A stretch of 48,886 nucleotides of DNA from an uncultured Wohlfahrtiimonas sp. (GTDB taxonomy: Bacteria > Pseudomonadota > Gammaproteobacteria > Cardiobacteriales > Wohlfahrtiimonadaceae): the NCBI GenBank assembly GCA_947630895.1, contig CANRJJ010000008.1, positions 1-48,886 of the forward strand, written 5' to 3'. This document shows, piece after piece, positions 26,728-36,858 of this stretch. A program made the translations under genes and the position numbers. The stretch's first letter is position 1, and each line of letters starts with the position of its first letter. A model generated the notes under the pieces. It saw only the letters and a list, made by a program, of their open reading frames with translations, made no database searches and was not told where the DNA came from.

Positions 26728-27486
26728 CTAACTCATATAATCTTTCAAAAATCGCATATTATCAGTGATCACTGAATCCACACCGATTGAAAATAGATAC
26801 TTAATGTCTTCAGGCTCATTTGCCGTATAAACCATCACAAATAGCCCTAATTCATGGCATCGATGAACAATTTCAGCCGATAAAATTCTATAGTTCGTGA
26901 TAATGCCAACACATTTCAGCTCAGACAAGATTTTAAAGAACTTATCTTTATCATTTTCCCAATCATCCACTAATAATGCTCGAGGAATGCTTGGCGAAGT
27001 ATCCATTGCACCTTTCAATGCTTCTGGTTGAAATGAGGATAATAAAAATGGATAAACAGCTGCATCAAATGGTACTTTTTGCTCTAAAAATTGTGCGACA
27101 GCAACGCCAGTTTCATAAGCTTCGCCAGCATTCGGTTTCAGCTCAATGTCTAATTGATATTTATTAATCGTGACAAAGTCTATGAGTTGCTCCAAGCGCG
27201 CTAAAGGCTCACCTGTATAATGCATAGAGTGCCAACTGCCTGCATCTTTTTTAGATAATTCATCCCAAGTGAATAAACTCGCTAAGCCTTCGCCATTCGT
27301 TGTACGCATCAAGTGGTCATCATGATGTAAAAACAGTTCTTTATCCTTCGATAATTTCACATCACATTCGAACATTGTATAACCACTTTTTGCGCCCAAT
27401 CTAAAGGCTGCCAAAGTATTTTCTGGGGCATCTTTCCCTGCACCACGATGAGCAATCAAATTAGGATATATATAATTATTTGGCAT
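26728..27486 (-). CDS. ugpQ: glycerophosphodiester phosphodiesterase UgpQ
   Basis: Cytoplasmic enzyme that hydrolyses glycerophosphodiesters imported by the Ugp system to glycerol-3-phosphate and an alcohol. At 252 residues it matches UgpQ (about 247), without a signal peptide. GDPD-domain motifs: LIAHRGAGKDAPENTLAAF near the start with the catalytic HR and the glutamate of PEN, FECDVKLSKD with metal-binding E/D, and LHHDDHL. Later YQLDIELKPN is also typical. AAGGAA precedes the ATG. Last gene of the ugp operon, 16 bases after ugpC. Confidence 0.93.
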   Translation of the reverse strand: MPNNYIYPNLIAHRGAGKDAPENTLAAFRLGAKSGYTMFECDVKLSKDKELFLHHDDHLMRTTNGEGLASLFTWDELSKKDAGSWHSMHYTGEPLARLEQLIDFVTINKYQLDIELKPNAGEAYETGVAVAQFLEQKVPFDAAVYPFLLSSFQPEALKGAMDTSPSIPRALLVDDWENDKDKFFKILSELKCVGIITNYRILSAEIVHRCHELGLFVMVYTANEPEDIKYLFSIGVDSVITDNMRFLKDYMS

Positions 27487-27502: not shown

Positions 27503-28609
27503 TTAATTATCTATGAATCGCTTTTGTGTCGTCGGATCAAACCACAATATCTCATCTAGTTTTGGCATGACAGAAAATTTTTGATTGCGTTGGTATTTGC
27601 TCTCTAAATCACGCGAATCTTCCGTGCGAATCGTCAAAGAAACATCACCTAAGTTCGTATAAAGCAACTGCTCAGAGCCTAATGTTTCTGATAAAGACAA
27701 CACAACATCCCAAGTCGCATCATTCGTTTCTGCTAGTACATCAAAATGCTCTGGGCGAATTCCTAAAATCCAATCTTTCTGTCCACTATTTAAAATACCC
27801 GATGGCACTTGGATATTTTTCAATTCGATACCACCCAAATAAACGCGCTGATCTTTGATCTCAACATTCAATAAATTCATCGCAGGTGAACCCATAAAAT
27901 TTGCAACAAAAGTAGATGCAGGCGAATGGAAGATTTCACTTGGTGTACCAAACTGTTCAACAACACCGCCATTCATGATGATGATTCTATCTGCTAACGT
28001 CATCGCTTCTGTTTGATCATGCGTCACATACAATGAAGTAATACCAATTTGATTATGACGACGGCGAATTTCTAAACGCGTAGATGTTCGAAGCTTTGCA
28101 TCCAAGTTCGATAATGGTTCATCGAATAAAAAGAGTTTTGGCTTACGAACAATCGCCCTGCCCATTGCTACTCGCTGTCTTTGTCCACCTGATAATTGAT
28201 TTGGTTTTTTATCCAAATGTTGCTCAATGTCCAACATTTTAGCGGTATCTTGAATGCGCCTTTCAATTTCATCTTTCGGCATTTTGGCTAACTTCACGCC
28301 ATAAGCCATGTTTTCACGAACACTCATGTGAGGATACAAAGCATAGTTTTGGAAAACCATCGCGATATCACGTTGAGCAGGTTCAAGTGCTGTCACATCT
28401 TTATCGCCAATCATAATTGTGCCGCCTGAGCTTTCTTCTAAGCCTGCGATCACTCGTAACAATGTCGATTTACCACAACCTGATGGCCCAACAACAACGA
28501 TAAATTCACCATCTTGAATCTCTATATCAATCCCTTTCAGAACTAAAGGGCCCGGTTTTCTTTTTGATCCATAATGTTTAGTAATATTTTTCAACTGAAC
28601 TGTAGACAT
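27503..28609 (-). CDS. ugpC: sn-glycerol-3-phosphate ABC transporter ATPase UgpC
   Basis: 368-residue ATPase of the MalK/UgpC type. Walker A GPSGCGKST, Q-loop FQNYALYPHM, signature LSGGQRQRVAMGRAI and Walker B LFLFDEPLSNLD are intact, followed by a C-terminal TOBE/OB regulatory domain (from about 235, GIRPEHFDV). It powers import of glycerol-3-phosphate and glycerophosphodiesters through UgpAE. Position between ugpE and ugpQ confirms the assignment over other MalK homologues. Confidence 0.94.
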   Translation of the reverse strand: MSTVQLKNITKHYGSKRKPGPLVLKGIDIEIQDGEFIVVVGPSGCGKSTLLRVIAGLEESSGGTIMIGDKDVTALEPAQRDIAMVFQNYALYPHMSVRENMAYGVKLAKMPKDEIERRIQDTAKMLDIEQHLDKKPNQLSGGQRQRVAMGRAIVRKPKLFLFDEPLSNLDAKLRTSTRLEIRRRHNQIGITSLYVTHDQTEAMTLADRIIIMNGGVVEQFGTPSEIFHSPASTFVANFMGSPAMNLLNVEIKDQRVYLGGIELKNIQVPSGILNSGQKDWILGIRPEHFDVLAETNDATWDVVLSLSETLGSEQLLYTNLGDVSLTIRTEDSRDLESKYQRNQKFSVMPKLDEILWFDPTTQKRFIDN

Positions 28610-28629: not shown

Positions 28630-29472
28630 TTATTTTTCGCTGTCGATCAAGCCTTTAACCAACCATTTTTGCATTAATAAAATGACCAACATTGGCGGTA
28701 TTAGCATCAATACAACAGTTGCCATCACGATATTCCAATCCACAGCGACATCGCCATTCCCCATCATTTGTCGTAAACCAACAGCTAATGGAAACATATC
28801 TTCTTTGGTTGCCATTAAAAGTGGCCACAAATATTGATTCCAGCCATAAATGAACTGAATCACAAACAAAGATGCAATCGTCGGAATGGATAATGGCAAT
28901 AAGATGTCTTTAAAAAATCGAATTGCACCAGCGCCATCAATACGCGCAGCTTCTAACAATTCATCAGGCACTGTTTTAAAGAATTGCCTAAATAAAAATG
29001 TTGCAGTTGCAGAGGCGATCAATGGAATTGTTAAACCCGCATAGCTATTCAACATTTTCAGATTAGCCACAACATCAAAGGTTGGGATAATACGCACTTC
29101 AACCGGCAACATTAATGTGATGAAGATGATCCAAAAAAGCAACGTTCTGAATGGAAATCTAAAGTACACAATTGCGAAAGCAGACAATAACGAAATGGCT
29201 ATTTTGCCCACAGCGATGATGAGCGTCATCACTGTCGTTACCCACAACATTCGCGCCGCTGAAATAGAAACACCTTCGCCACCCGATAAAGCTTTTGAGT
29301 AGTTTTCCCAGAAATGTTCACCTGGTACTAAAGATAAAGGTACATTTACAACTTCTTGTGCTGTTTGCGTCGATGCCACAAAAGCCAAATAGATCGGGAA
29401 ACAAACCAGCAATACGCTGATGATTAAAAAGAAATGGGATAAAAATTTTAGCCCAGGACGATTCTCTATCAT
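28630..29472 (-). CDS. ugpE: sn-glycerol-3-phosphate ABC permease UgpE
   Basis: 280-residue inner-membrane permease with six hydrophobic segments. The EAA loop ELLEAARIDGAGAIRFFKDI, which docks the ATPase, is clear near residue 175. ANSTQTAQEVV-type and VPGEHFWENYS segments in the first periplasmic loop resemble UgpE of E. coli. It begins two bases after ugpA. Confidence 0.93.
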   Translation of the reverse strand: MIENRPGLKFLSHFFLIISVLLVCFPIYLAFVASTQTAQEVVNVPLSLVPGEHFWENYSKALSGGEGVSISAARMLWVTTVMTLIIAVGKIAISLLSAFAIVYFRFPFRTLLFWIIFITLMLPVEVRIIPTFDVVANLKMLNSYAGLTIPLIASATATFLFRQFFKTVPDELLEAARIDGAGAIRFFKDILLPLSIPTIASLFVIQFIYGWNQYLWPLLMATKEDMFPLAVGLRQMMGNGDVAVDWNIVMATVVLMLIPPMLVILLMQKWLVKGLIDSEK

Positions 29473-29474
29473 AA

Positions 29475-30353
29475 TTATTGATTCCCCTTGCGATCAATGA
29501 AACGGAATTGAACAATGGTCAGCATTAATACAAAGCCCATTAAAATCACTGACTGCGCAGCAGAACCACCATAATCCATCGCTTTAAAGCCATCAAAATA
29601 AATGCGATACACCAATGTTGATGTCGCTTTCCCTGGCCCGCCTTGCGTTAAGGCATCAATAATGGCAAATGTATCAAAGAACACATACACAACATTGATC
29701 ACGCATAAAAAGAAAGTTGTTGGCCATAACAGTGGAAATTGAATGGAGAAAAATCTGCGCCAAGGGCCAGCACCATCAATCGCCGCAGCTTCCATTAAAG
29801 ATTTAGGAATCGCTTGTAAGCCTGCAAAAAAGAATAAAAAGTTATAAGAAATCTGTTTCCAAATCGACGCGATAATCACAAGCCACATTGCTTGATCTGC
29901 ATTCAATTGATGGTTCCAAGTAATGCCTATTTTACTTAACCAATATGAAATGATTCCGAAAGATGGCGCGAACATAAATGTCCACAATACGCCAACAATA
30001 ATGGGTGAAACTGCATAAGGTAAAATTAATGCTGTGCGATAAAAGAGCGAGGCTCGCACAACTTTTTGCATAAAAAATGCCAAAAATAACGATAAACTCA
30101 AACCCAATAACGTGACCCAAAAAGAGAAATAAATGGTGACATAAACAGAATCAACATAAGTTTTATCCGCAAACAATGTGCGAAAGTTTTCAAAGCCAAC
30201 CCATTCACGAGAAGTACCAAAAATATCTTCTAACTGAAAACTTTGGACCAATGCTTGCCCCGCTGGCCAATAAAAGAAAATGGCAATAATGACTAATTGA
30301 GGCAAGATCAACAGCCATGGTAAAACTCGATAATGCTTAAAATATAATTTCAT
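29475..30353 (-). CDS. ugpA: sn-glycerol-3-phosphate ABC permease UgpA
   Basis: 292-residue permease, partner of UgpE, with six membrane segments. The N-terminus LPWLLILPQLVIIAIFFYWPA and the EAA loop SLMEAAAIDGAGPWRRFFSI are typical. The segment DALTQGGPGKATSTLVYRIY is conserved in sugar and glycerol-phosphate UgpA-type permeases. It lies 72 bases after ugpB1, with a terminator-like hairpin between them. Confidence 0.93.
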   Translation of the reverse strand: MKLYFKHYRVLPWLLILPQLVIIAIFFYWPAGQALVQSFQLEDIFGTSREWVGFENFRTLFADKTYVDSVYVTIYFSFWVTLLGLSLSLFLAFFMQKVVRASLFYRTALILPYAVSPIIVGVLWTFMFAPSFGIISYWLSKIGITWNHQLNADQAMWLVIIASIWKQISYNFLFFFAGLQAIPKSLMEAAAIDGAGPWRRFFSIQFPLLWPTTFFLCVINVVYVFFDTFAIIDALTQGGPGKATSTLVYRIYFDGFKAMDYGGSAAQSVILMGFVLMLTIVQFRFIDRKGNQ

Positions 30354-30425: not shown

Positions 30426-31736
30426 CTACTTGTTAGCTCTTTCAAAACGTTTCAACAATGCATTTCCACGCTCTACTGCGCTGTCTAATGCTGCTTTTGG
30501 CGTTTTCTTTCCTGTCCAAATTTGTTCTGTTTCTTCATCTACGATCGTACGAATTTGGAGCATATTGCCTAAGCGCAAGCCTTTAGTATTGTCTGTTGTA
30601 TCTCGAATCATCTGCTCGACAGGTACATCAGCCCCAGGATTTTCATTATAGAAGCCTGTTTTCTCTGTAATCTCAAATGCCTCTTTAGTCACTGGTAAAT
30701 AACCTGTTCTCATGTGGCTTTGTGCCGCTCTTTCAGGTTCTGAAATAAACTCAAAGAACTTCGCAACACCTTTATAGTTCTCAGCTGGCTTGCCATTCAA
30801 TACCCATAAACTAGCACCACCGATGACTGTATTTTGTGGTGCACCTTCAACATCGTCATAATATGGCAAAGTTGTTTCTGCAAAATCAAACTGCGCATCA
30901 CGTTTCAAGCCTGAATAGAATCCTGATGAACCCATGAAAATTGCACATTCACCTGATAAAAATGCTGGCTGAGATGCAACTGAACGGCCTTTATAAACGA
31001 ACAAGCCATTTTTAGCCATATCACTCAAGTTTTCGAAATGTTTAACATGCAAAGGCGTATTAAATTGCAACTCAACATCTAAACCATCGAAGCCATTATT
31101 TTTAGATGCATATGGCACATTGTGCCAAGCTGAAAAGCTTTCTAGCTGTGTCCAGCCCATCCAAGAAATGGTCATTGGGCATTTGCTGCCTGCCGCTTTC
31201 AATGCTTCTGTTGCTTCACGCAACTCTTTCCATGTTTTCGGTGCTTTGTCAGGATCCAATCCTGCTTTTTTAAATTCATCTTTATTGTAATACATCACCG
31301 TTGTTGAGCTGTTGAATGGCATCGACAACAAATCGCCTTCTGGCGATGCATAGTAGCTCGCAACCGCAGGAATATAATCATCGATCTCAAACTCAATATT
31401 GTTCTCTTTCATGATGTCAGAAACAGATTTCGTAATCCCTTTTGAGTAGATCATCGATGCTGTTCCCACTTCAAAAACTTGCAATATATCTGGCGCTTGC
31501 CCTGAACGAATCGCTGCAACACCCGCAGTCATAGATTGCTCATAATCGCCTTTAAAAACTGGCACAACTTTATAGTCTGATTGGCTTGCGTTAAATTCAT
31601 TCGCCAAATCATTCACCCAATCATTCAGTGCGCCATTCATCGAATGCCACCATTGAATTTCAGTTTGTGCATAAGATGCACTCATTAATGCACTTGCCCC
31701 CAAAATCGTTGCCAAAGCAATTTTCTTTATTTTCAT
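30426..31736 (-). CDS. ugpB: sn-glycerol-3-phosphate-binding protein UgpB, copy 1
   Basis: 436-residue periplasmic solute-binding protein with a cleavable signal peptide (MKIKKIALATILGASALMSASYA). The mature start TEIQWWHSMNG and segments such as SMPFNSSTTVMYYNKDEFKKAG and GGASLWVLNGKPAENYKGVA match UgpB. It captures glycerol-3-phosphate and glycerophosphodiesters for UgpAEC. A close paralogue lies directly upstream (31909-33225); the two align along their whole length with most residues shared by eye. GGAGAG precedes the ATG at good spacing. The gap of 172 bases upstream may hold its own promoter, but I see no clear one. Confidence 0.92.
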   Translation of the reverse strand: MKIKKIALATILGASALMSASYAQTEIQWWHSMNGALNDWVNDLANEFNASQSDYKVVPVFKGDYEQSMTAGVAAIRSGQAPDILQVFEVGTASMIYSKGITKSVSDIMKENNIEFEIDDYIPAVASYYASPEGDLLSMPFNSSTTVMYYNKDEFKKAGLDPDKAPKTWKELREATEALKAAGSKCPMTISWMGWTQLESFSAWHNVPYASKNNGFDGLDVELQFNTPLHVKHFENLSDMAKNGLFVYKGRSVASQPAFLSGECAIFMGSSGFYSGLKRDAQFDFAETTLPYYDDVEGAPQNTVIGGASLWVLNGKPAENYKGVAKFFEFISEPERAAQSHMRTGYLPVTKEAFEITEKTGFYNENPGADVPVEQMIRDTTDNTKGLRLGNMLQIRTIVDEETEQIWTGKKTPKAALDSAVERGNALLKRFERANK

Positions 31737-31864
31737 CGATGCTTCTCTCCGTAAAATTTATATTTATTAACTACGTCTGATTGATGATGTTTATCCTCGC
31801 ACTATATTTAACATATATTGCCAAATTAAACACCCAACAATGTAGCTAAAAAGTAACCAGAATA

Positions 31865-31892
31865 AAAAGCCCAACCTTACGATTGGGCTTTT
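31865..31892 (-). terminator. intrinsic terminator between the two ugpB copies
   Basis: Inverted repeat AAAAGCCCAA / TTGGGCTTTT with an eight-base loop and a T-rich minus-strand exit, 17 bases after the upstream ugpB stop. Confidence 0.82.
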
Positions 31893-31908
31893 ATAAAATT
31901 GTTATATT

Positions 31909-33225
31909 TTATTGGTTTACGCGTTCAAAACGTTTCAGCAATGCATTGCCGCGCTCTACGATGTTATCCAATGCTTGTTTTGGCTCTTGCTCACCGATCC
32001 ATACTTTTTCTGTTTCTTCATCCATAATCGTACGAATTTGTAACATATTGCCTAAACGAATGCCTTTAGTATTGTCTGTTGCTTTACGAATCATTTGTTC
32101 AACAGGCACATCTGCACCAGGGTTTTCATCATAGAAACCTGACTTTTCTGTAATTTCAAATGCTTCTTTTGTGATTGGTAAATAACCTGTTCTCATGTGG
32201 CTGTCTGCTGCTCTTTCAGGCTGTGAAATGTAATCAAAGAACTGAGCAACACCTTTATAGTTTTCCGCAGGTTTGCCATTCAATACCCACAAGCTTGCGC
32301 CACCAATTACCGTATTTTGTGGTGCACCTTTTACATCTGAGTAATAAGGCATTTGTGCTTCACCAAATTCAAATTTAGCATCACGTTTAATGCCTGCATA
32401 AGCACCTGATGAACCAAATGTGATTGCACACTCACCAGCAATAAACGCAGGCTGTGCACCATCACCACGGCCTTTATAAACAAACAAGCCATTCTTAGCC
32501 ATATCGTTTAAGTTTTCTAAATGGCGAACTTGTAATGGCTCATTCAATAACAACTCAACATCTAAACCATCAAAGCCATTATTCTTAGTGGCAACAGGTT
32601 GATTGTGCCATGAAGAGAAGCTTTCTAATTGCGTCCAACCAAACCAAGTTGTCGTCATTGGGCATTTGCTACCTGAAGCTTTTAAAGCCTCAGTTGCTGT
32701 ACGAATTTCTTCCCATGTTTTTGGTGGTTGATCAGGATTTAAACCTGCTTTTTTGAACTCATCTTTATTGTAGTACATTACCGTTGTTGAGCTATTGAAT
32801 GGCAATGATAATAATTTACCATTTGGTGCAGTGTAGTAACTTGCCACCGCAGGGATGTATGCATCCATATCTAATGGCACATTGCTCTCTTCCATAATTT
32901 CAGAGACAGATTTAATCACGCCATCAGCATGAATCATGGATGCTGTGCCCACTTCGAATACTTGCAAAATATCTGGCGCATTGCCCGATCTAACTGCTGC
33001 AACACCAGCCGTCATTGATTGATCGTAGCTGCCTTTAAATACCGGCACAACTTTATAATCTTTTTGCGATTCATTGAAACCATTCGCCAAATCTTGTACC
33101 CAATCGCCCAATGGACCTTCCATTGAATGCCACCACTGAATTTCAGCTTGAGCCATGACTGAGCTTGATAAAAATCCAAAACCTAAAATTGTTGCTGCAG
33201 CGAGTTTTTTTACTTTAGTGACCAT
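31909..33225 (-). CDS. ugpB: sn-glycerol-3-phosphate-binding protein UgpB, copy 2 (promoter-proximal)
   Basis: 438-residue periplasmic binding protein, paralogue of the adjacent 30426-31736 gene. Signal peptide VKKLAAATILGFGFLSSSVMA, mature start QAEIQWWHSMEG. Differences from copy 1 fall mainly in surface stretches (for example AYIPAVASYYTAPNGKLLSLP against DYIPAVASYYASPEGDLLSMP), while the binding core is kept, so the substrates may be the same or slightly different. GAGG lies seven bases before the ATG. It is the first gene behind a Pho-box promoter and is followed by a terminator before copy 1. Tandem duplication is the simplest origin. Confidence 0.9.
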   Translation of the reverse strand: MVTKVKKLAAATILGFGFLSSSVMAQAEIQWWHSMEGPLGDWVQDLANGFNESQKDYKVVPVFKGSYDQSMTAGVAAVRSGNAPDILQVFEVGTASMIHADGVIKSVSEIMEESNVPLDMDAYIPAVASYYTAPNGKLLSLPFNSSTTVMYYNKDEFKKAGLNPDQPPKTWEEIRTATEALKASGSKCPMTTTWFGWTQLESFSSWHNQPVATKNNGFDGLDVELLLNEPLQVRHLENLNDMAKNGLFVYKGRGDGAQPAFIAGECAITFGSSGAYAGIKRDAKFEFGEAQMPYYSDVKGAPQNTVIGGASLWVLNGKPAENYKGVAQFFDYISQPERAADSHMRTGYLPITKEAFEITEKSGFYDENPGADVPVEQMIRKATDNTKGIRLGNMLQIRTIMDEETEKVWIGEQEPKQALDNIVERGNALLKRFERVNQ

Positions 33226-33261
33226 GAGGTTTCCTCGGTTTATTTATAATGAACTCCGAGG

Positions 33262-33295
33262 AGTATAAGAAAGATTTATGACACTAAAATTACAA
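33262..33295 (-). promoter_or_regulatory. Pho-box promoter of the ugp operon
   Basis: Read on the minus strand, TTGTAAT-TTTA-GTGTCAT (33295 to 33278) is a pair of seven-base half-sites four bases apart, close to the PhoB consensus CTGTCAT-N4-CTGTCAT. After exactly ten bases follows TATACT (33267-33262), a good -10. PhoB-activated promoters use a Pho box in place of the -35 at this distance. The ugp genes are classic Pho regulon members. An inverted repeat ACTCC-GA-GGAGT (33253-33264) overlaps the -10 and start region. Confidence 0.75.
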
Positions 33296-33311
33296 TCCAA
33301 ATTTTTATACA

Positions 33312-33345
33312 ACGTCATTAGATTGTCATAAATCCTCAATATACT
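33312..33345 (+). promoter_or_regulatory. Pho-box promoter of the HAD phosphatase gene
   Basis: On the plus strand ACGTCAT-TAGA-TTGTCAT (33312-33329) is a second PhoB-like half-site pair, followed after ten bases by TATACT (33340-33345). Geometry is the same as for the divergent ugp promoter, including AAATC right after the box. Transcription would start near 33352, some 84 bases before the ATG at 33436. Confidence 0.7.
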
Positions 33346-33435: not shown

Positions 33436-34116
33436 ATGCTAGCAATTTTTGATTTAGATGAAACACTCATTCAAGGCGACTGCGTCACTCTTTGGTGCGA
33501 ATGGCTTTGTGAGCAAGGTTTCATTGAAAACATTAAAGAATTCCTCGCGCAAGAAGCTGAAATTATGCGGGCATACAAAGCAAAAACTTTGGATCAACAA
33601 GATTGCATGAATTTAATTTTTAAGCCGATCGTGCATTTAACCATGTCAGAAATTCACTCGCACATAGAACAATTCATTCGCTCAAAAATTGCACCAATCA
33701 TCTATCAAGCAGGCTTTTCTTTGACCCAAGATCACATCAAAAATGGTGATGATGTCTTAATTATTTCAGCTTCGCCACAGATCTTTGTGAATCCGATCGC
33801 GAAACATTTTTTTAATATCGACAAAGCATTTGGCATTGAAATTTCACATGAAAATAATCATTACACAGGTAAAATCACAGGAATCATGCCTTATCAAGCA
33901 GGCAAAATTAGTACACTAAACCAATACATTCAACACAATAATATTGAATCCTCAAATGCTTTAGAGCATTGCTATTTCTATAGTGATTCCATCAATGATC
34001 TGCCATTGTTAGAACTTGTCGCTTACCCGAATGTTGTGAATCCTGATGTTGCGCTCAATGAAATCGCAGAGATGAATAACTGGCCAGTGTTACAGTTTAA
34101 AACCCTTCTGAAATAA
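33436..34116 (+). CDS. HAD-IB family phosphatase (SerB/CicA-like)
   Basis: A 226-residue cytoplasmic HAD hydrolase. Motif I FDLDETL gives nucleophile D6 and acid D8; motif II is IISASPQIF; a lysine follows in YQAGKIS; motif III/IV is YSDSINDLPLL with two aspartates. A helical cap (about 20-90) and the overall pattern match subfamily IB, which includes phosphoserine phosphatase and uncharacterised CicA-type enzymes. The substrate is not readable. GGAAG precedes the ATG. A Pho-box promoter shared back-to-back with ugpB suggests a role in phosphate scavenging, for example from a small phosphate ester. The last 20 bases overlap the convergent transglycosylase gene. Confidence 0.85.
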   Translation: MLAIFDLDETLIQGDCVTLWCEWLCEQGFIENIKEFLAQEAEIMRAYKAKTLDQQDCMNLIFKPIVHLTMSEIHSHIEQFIRSKIAPIIYQAGFSLTQDHIKNGDDVLIISASPQIFVNPIAKHFFNIDKAFGIEISHENNHYTGKITGIMPYQAGKISTLNQYIQHNNIESSNALEHCYFYSDSINDLPLLELVAYPNVVNPDVALNEIAEMNNWPVLQFKTLLK

Positions 34117-35775: not shown

Positions 35776-36858
35776 TCAATTTAAAATACCAGGCTCTTGG
35801 TTAATGCCTTGAAACTTAAATAACTTCGCTTCTTTAAAATCTTTTGTCGCATTGCCTGAGAAAATATTTTTCTGATCTTTCCCTAAGTCCAGCTTCATCA
35901 CTTTACCTGTTTTTTCATTAAAATCGATCTGTTTTAAATCAACCCAGAAAGTATTTGGCGTAAGCGCTGATTCAAAGAAATACAACAATTCTTTATGATC
36001 CACAACTGTGCGCCAGCGAGTGGATGAAATATTTGGCTCAGCTTCTGTATTCAAACCAAATGGGACAGAAACGTTACGAATCACGCTGAATACACTTGCG
36101 ATCGAAGTGCGCAAATCTTCATTTTTAGGAATCGCATTGATGTAGAACGATGCACGAGCAAAGCGATCCGATGCACGATTTGTACCTGGTAACATCACTG
36201 TGCCACCAATTTGTTGCCAATAAGTATTGAGCGCCAATTGCTCTTCAAAAGTTGGCGAGTTCGTCATCACTTGGTAATCACGACTATGATGAATCACTTG
36301 CTTACCTTTAATGTACTCAATAATTGCACTATCGCCTGTTGCATCAGAAATCGACAAATGCAGCGTTGCATTACGAGTTTCTCCTGGCACTTTATCCGTC
36401 ACAACCACAAATTCTTCTTTCGATAATGCATCGACAGCTTCTTGTACTGTTGCAAAGTTATCCAATACATATTGTGCCCAAGCTGAAATAGAGAGCAATT
36501 TTTTATCCGTTGAAACATCTGGATATTCTGATTCTACCAACCATAATAAGTTAGCTGCCAAACCCTTTTCATTCACGCCATCTGTGCTTGAAATATCATA
36601 GCCTGAAGCAATGACGCTGCCATATTTTGATACCCATTCCACAGAATTAGGACCAGCACCACCATTTTGATGAATGCCTTTTGGCAAAATCCATAAGTTA
36701 GTGCCAACATCAACTTTCCAATCCATTGATCGTCCAGTAATTACACGATCATTATCACCTAAAAATACTGCTCGAGTACAAGCTAAACCTACAGGAATCG
36801 CGGCAAGACAGAATGTCATAACTGCTGCCGATAATAAACGGCGCGTATATTTTTTCAT
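35776..36858 (-). CDS. periplasmic linear amide C-N hydrolase (choloylglycine hydrolase / penicillin V acylase family)
   Basis: A 360-residue Ntn-type hydrolase. A signal peptide ending PVGLA is followed directly by C27 (CTRAVFLGDNDRVITGRSMDW); after cleavage this cysteine would be the N-terminal nucleophile. R43 and D46 in GRSMDW, the SEYPD-containing strand and a later N (TNSPTFEEQLALN) and R (TRWRTVVD) are the expected family active-site positions. Gram-negative members act on penicillin V or on acyl-homoserine lactones rather than on bile salts; which applies here is unknown. It is divergent from ribokinase and has its own terminator. Confidence 0.84.
   Translation of the reverse strand: MKKYTRRLLSAAVMTFCLAAIPVGLACTRAVFLGDNDRVITGRSMDWKVDVGTNLWILPKGIHQNGGAGPNSVEWVSKYGSVIASGYDISSTDGVNEKGLAANLLWLVESEYPDVSTDKKLLSISAWAQYVLDNFATVQEAVDALSKEEFVVVTDKVPGETRNATLHLSISDATGDSAIIEYIKGKQVIHHSRDYQVMTNSPTFEEQLALNTYWQQIGGTVMLPGTNRASDRFARASFYINAIPKNEDLRTSIASVFSVIRNVSVPFGLNTEAEPNISSTRWRTVVDHKELLYFFESALTPNTFWVDLKQIDFNEKTGKVMKLDLGKDQKNIFSGNATKDFKEAKLFKFQGINQEPGILN

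Follow-up and report, generated by a model that had tools for sequence, protein, structure and literature searches.

What joins a glycerol-3-phosphate importer operon to a phosphatase gene of the HAD-IB subfamily when the two are transcribed away from each other out of one short intergenic region? The question is raised by the window, a 48,886-nucleotide stretch of DNA from an uncultured Wohlfahrtiimonas sp., for which a sequence-only reading had predicted that PhoB controls genes on both sides. We think it probable that a two-way PhoB-activated promoter drives the ugp operon together with a cytoplasmic HAD-IB phosphatase that acts on an imported phosphomonoester. The layout of the promoter, its conservation and its Pho setting were read from the DNA, the action of PhoB is carried over from E. 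coli, and the substrate is suggested by genomic context.

The region between ugpB and the HAD-IB gene contains two promoters of the PhoB type. Direct reading of positions 33262-33345 revealed two Pho boxes that point outward (Table 1). On both sides, two TGTCA-type half-sites form a direct repeat with an 11-bp period, and the box lies exactly 10 bp upstream of the -10 hexamer, in place of a -35 element. The spacer from box to TATACT is AAATCTTTCT on the minus strand and AAATCCTCAA on the plus strand, and the HAD gene has a leader of 90 nt between the -10 and its ATG. The two outward boxes, the 10-bp spacers, both TATACT hexamers and the start of the HAD gene at 33436 were all as the sequence-only reading had given them. 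Two other observations concern the window itself: the tandem ugpB duplicates (30426-33225) are 76% identical, with only the second copy retained in W. larvae, and positions 35776-36858 encode a member of the choloylglycine hydrolase family (PF02275), which probably has a signal peptide and scores under the bile-salt hydrolase equivalog cut-off.

Table 1. Promoter elements and genes at the ugp/HAD-IB locus, in positions of the window.
Feature	Position	Strand	Basis or remark
-10 hexamer TATACT, ugpB promoter	33262..33267	minus	10 bp from box; TATAAT in the other two species
Pho box, ugp operon side, TTGTAAT-TTTA-GTGTCAT	33278..33295	minus	11/12 half-site matches; kept in G003 and W. larvae; position class as for the E. 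coli ugpB box
Pho box, HAD-IB side, ACGTCAT-TAGA-TTGTCAT	33312..33329	plus	11/12 half-site matches; kept in G003 and W. larvae
-10 hexamer TATACT, HAD promoter	33340..33345	plus	10 bp from box; invariant in three species
HAD-IB family hydrolase, 226 aa, predicted cytoplasmic	33436..34116	plus	TIGR01490; single-gene unit (next gene convergent)
ugpB copy 1, glycerol-3-phosphate-binding protein, first gene of operon	31909..33225	minus	NF008211, 617 bits (cut-off 411)
ugpB copy 2	30426..31736	minus	605 bits (cut-off 411)
ugpA, permease	29475..30353	minus	profile search
ugpE, permease	28630..29472	minus	profile search
ugpC, ATPase	27503..28609	minus	profile search
ugpQ-like glycerophosphodiester phosphodiesterase	26728..27486	minus	NF006989, 252 bits (cut-off 264)

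The double promoter is conserved in evolution. It was also found between ugpB and the HAD gene in two congeners, G003 and W. larvae (G004). The half-site cores are 18, 18 and 16 bp apart in the three species, all spacers are 10 bp, and the -10 elements are retained. Identity across the three species was found at 32 of 36 motif positions, compared with 10 of 30 spacer positions (Fisher p = 3e-6). The AAATC described earlier as following each box is present in the source DNA but is missing from the other two species, and it therefore lies outside the conserved design. In G003 and W. larvae the HAD-side promoter element is only 28-33 nt upstream of the HAD start; in W. larvae, which lacks the first ugpB copy, the promoter is 329 nt upstream of the remaining one. 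The comparison left out G005, in which the contig ends inside ugpB and HAD and the junction is unreadable, and G001 and G002 have neither ugpB nor the HAD gene. Other genera of the family retain the Pho box at ugpB but have different neighbouring genes. Overall, the HAD gene is present in 8 of 18 family genomes, and three relatives have ugpB and lack the HAD gene, indicating that Ugp function does not depend on it.

The same promoter layout is found at established Pho genes. PhoB in the source genome scores above its curated cut-off and is accompanied by PhoR and a pst-phoU operon, thereby excluding the absence of phoB, which had been named beforehand as fatal to the prediction. A pstS carrying the layout, proposed earlier as a check, was found in the source genome and, by strict search, in four of five congeners (G001, G002, G004, G005). 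The strict search also placed the layout upstream of W. larvae phoA (alkaline phosphatase, 764.7 bits), a phnS2 operon and other phosphorus genes. In E. coli, the same scan returned CTGTCATAAAGTTGTCAC-10-TATAGT at phoA, CTGTCATAAAACTGTCAT-10-TATAAC at pstS and TTGTCATCTTTCTGACAC-10-TACAAA at ugpB. The spacing from pho box to core promoter is strict in E. coli, and the PhoB site of ugpB is broadly conserved in Gammaproteobacteria (PMC10294691).

Several other Pho-box promoters were observed in the genus. A second back-to-back pair with 10-bp spacers, in W. larvae and G003 (L137:2855-2948 and L138:8510-8603), sits between a gene for a TIGR03364 (HpnW) oxidase and a phnS2-transporter-phnW-phnX operon, which shows that the genus pairs import with breakdown by such promoters elsewhere too. 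In G001 (L107:1501-1533) and G002 (L110), both without ugp, a protoglobin-like gene is preceded at approximately 170-230 nt by a near-perfect Pho promoter. A Pho-box promoter also precedes a gene for a DAHL-domain histidine kinase (L075:309-3143, and L124 in W. larvae); in the source genome a response-regulator gene lies downstream of it, suggesting a Pho-controlled signalling pair. Lastly, an esterase-like phytase (PF13449) gene of the source genome (L075:13463-14879) has a Pho-box promoter, as does its homologue in G005 (L131).

The HAD protein belongs to the HAD-IB subfamily and appears to be cytoplasmic. It scored 153.5 bits against TIGR01490 (cut-off 98.3) and has the HAD motifs DLDETL and SDSxNDLPLL. 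The catalytic motif is at the very start of the protein and leaves no room for a signal peptide, so the enzyme is predicted to work in the cytoplasm on imported compounds and not as an external scavenger. Of the earlier suggestion of a phosphate-scavenging phosphatase, use of organophosphate after import thus stays plausible, and scavenging outside the cell does not. An AlphaFold model based on two sequences was of poor quality (pLDDT 46) and was set aside.

The nearest characterised relatives of the HAD protein are histidinol-phosphatases, and we considered whether it is a histidinol-phosphate or other biosynthetic phosphatase that adjoins ugp by accident, with a Pho box that is real and reflects general demand. 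The best NCBIfam model is indeed HolPasePseu (NF052360, histidinol-phosphatase), and related proteins of Pseudomonas and Marinobacter supply histidinol-phosphatase activity, making histidinol (PMC5764234). However, the score against this model, 188.8 bits, misses the cut-off of 280. The genome also has a full his operon with a bifunctional HisB (592.7 bits, cut-off 443), leaving no gap in the pathway for the HAD protein to fill and making a histidinol-phosphatase role unneeded, and hisD is present in 17 of the 18 family genomes, versus 8 for the HAD gene. The active-site motifs differ as well. Motif I is DLDETL, where HolPase-like homologues mostly have DLDNTL, and motif II is IISASP, where they have ITATN; throughout the family, the HAD proteins have E or L in DLDxTL and SASP or SSSP at motif II, as opposed to mostly N and TATN. 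A tree placed the family's HAD proteins apart from the HolPase-like group with 100/100 support. Based on these results, we consider a biosynthetic role unlikely, and an automatic histidinol-phosphatase label on this HAD-IB branch would probably mislead.

The HAD gene was also found in other Pho-linked settings. In G015, a member of the same family without ugpB, it overlaps the end of a gene for a type I phosphodiesterase (PF01663), and a Pho box with 10-bp spacing precedes this pair, which lies beside a ugpQ-like gene. In G013 it is the last gene in an operon that also encodes a binding protein, a PF01663 phosphodiesterase, two permeases and an ATPase, with closest similarity to 2-aminoethylphosphonate transporters; the upstream box is weak. 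The HAD gene is solitary in G010 and G014, with no Pho box upstream, and homologues of the HAD gene carried by replicons of Pseudomonas, Photobacterium and Vibrio had no Pho context. Separately, a distant gammaproteobacterium (G105, L105:8781-9701) has a stand-alone gene for a PF01663-like phosphodiesterase with a Pho box and a 10-bp spacer.

These arrangements bear on whether both halves of the promoter function. A single promoter can have several PhoB sites, as E. coli pstS does, and our scan detected a second, weaker site there. The HAD-side box might likewise be an accessory PhoB site for ugpB, with only the ugp side working and the HAD gene transcribed from some other promoter; the 90-nt leader would fit such an arrangement. 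Yet the HAD-side box faces the HAD gene and has its own -10 at exactly 10 bp, with a TATACT that does not vary among the three species. In addition, the corresponding element is much closer to the HAD start in the two congeners, and the G015 gene is behind a separate Pho box. We judge an accessory role to be improbable, and we retain activation by PhoB in both directions as the preferred reading.

The strict layout is rare in the genome and is found mostly at phosphorus genes. We scored the pattern TGTCAT-N5-TGTCAT-N10-TATA(A/C)T over its 18 positions. Both sites of the double promoter scored 17/18, and every other site in the window scored below 15/18. Across the genome (2.13 Mb), the layout with at most two mismatches had six matches, compared with none for a reversed-pattern control: two are the ugp/HAD pair, and the others are upstream of pstS, an operon with a phnS2-like binding protein, a phytase-like gene and a gene for a DAHL-domain sensor kinase, indicating a compact, mostly phosphorus-related set. 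Random genomes simulated with the dinucleotide make-up of the window had approximately 0.8 single sites scoring at least 16, and six simulated genomes contained no divergent pair. Single half-sites are common, and a loose half-site search gave >200 matches genome-wide, mostly noise, but the control, the simulations and the conservation in three species uphold the earlier argument from shared geometry and make it extremely improbable that the boxes are chance matches in AT-rich DNA.

Taken together, control of both ugp and the HAD gene by PhoB has good support at the level of sequence from the presence of PhoB, PhoR and Pst, the boxed pstS, the pair conserved in three species and the G015 operon. 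By analogy with E. coli, phosphorylated PhoB would bind each direct repeat when phosphate is low, in lieu of a -35 contact, and recruit RNA polymerase to the -10 element lying 10 bp downstream. On one side this would induce the importer for glycerol-3-phosphate and glycerophosphodiesters along with UgpQ, and on the other side the cytoplasmic HAD-IB phosphatase, thereby coordinating import by Ugp, diester cleavage by UgpQ and monoester cleavage by the HAD enzyme. The HAD enzyme would most likely free phosphate from a phosphomonoester supplied by Pho-induced import and phosphodiesterase activity. Glycerol-3-phosphate is the leading candidate substrate, judging from the context, and its cleavage would turn imported organophosphate into usable phosphate. 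More broadly, a HAD-IB branch with a changed active site may have been recruited to the Pho regulon of Wohlfahrtiimonas and its relatives for intracellular release of phosphate from glycerol-3-phosphate or related phosphomonoesters brought in by Ugp, moving between importer and phosphodiesterase operons; we put this forward tentatively, with its chances a little short of even. Control of ugp by Pho is textbook knowledge and this promoter type is already known; the HAD-IB gene is a new candidate member of the regulon, and we found no earlier report of the HAD-Pho pairing in the open-access papers searched. With it, the phosphate-starvation response of Wohlfahrtiimonas gains a candidate enzyme, which points to a possible answer to how glycerol-3-phosphate imported by Ugp yields its phosphate.

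The locus resembles several known systems and differs from each. Among HAD-IB proteins, PDB 3fvv is a full-length homologue (E 4e-27) that is uncharacterised and has no assigned function. The histidinol-phosphatases of Pseudomonas, Marinobacter and Burkholderia (NF052360, TIGR01490) share the subfamily and the length, and identity to gammaproteobacterial homologues is approximately 34%; unlike them, the HAD protein falls below the equivalog cut-off, has altered motifs I and II, would be redundant with HisB and is in a Pho-controlled context. The ugpBAECQ promoter of E. coli has the same direct repeat, 11-bp period, 10-bp spacer and operon content, but ugpB there lies behind livF, with neither a divergent phosphatase gene nor an outward partner box, whereas ugpB in the source genome is duplicated. 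A parallel in layout is the phosphonate importer-phnW-phnX system with its HpnW-type oxidase in the same genus, in which two outward Pho boxes also tie an enzyme gene to the operon of an organophosphorus importer, although the substrate there is a phosphonate and the enzymes come from described families.
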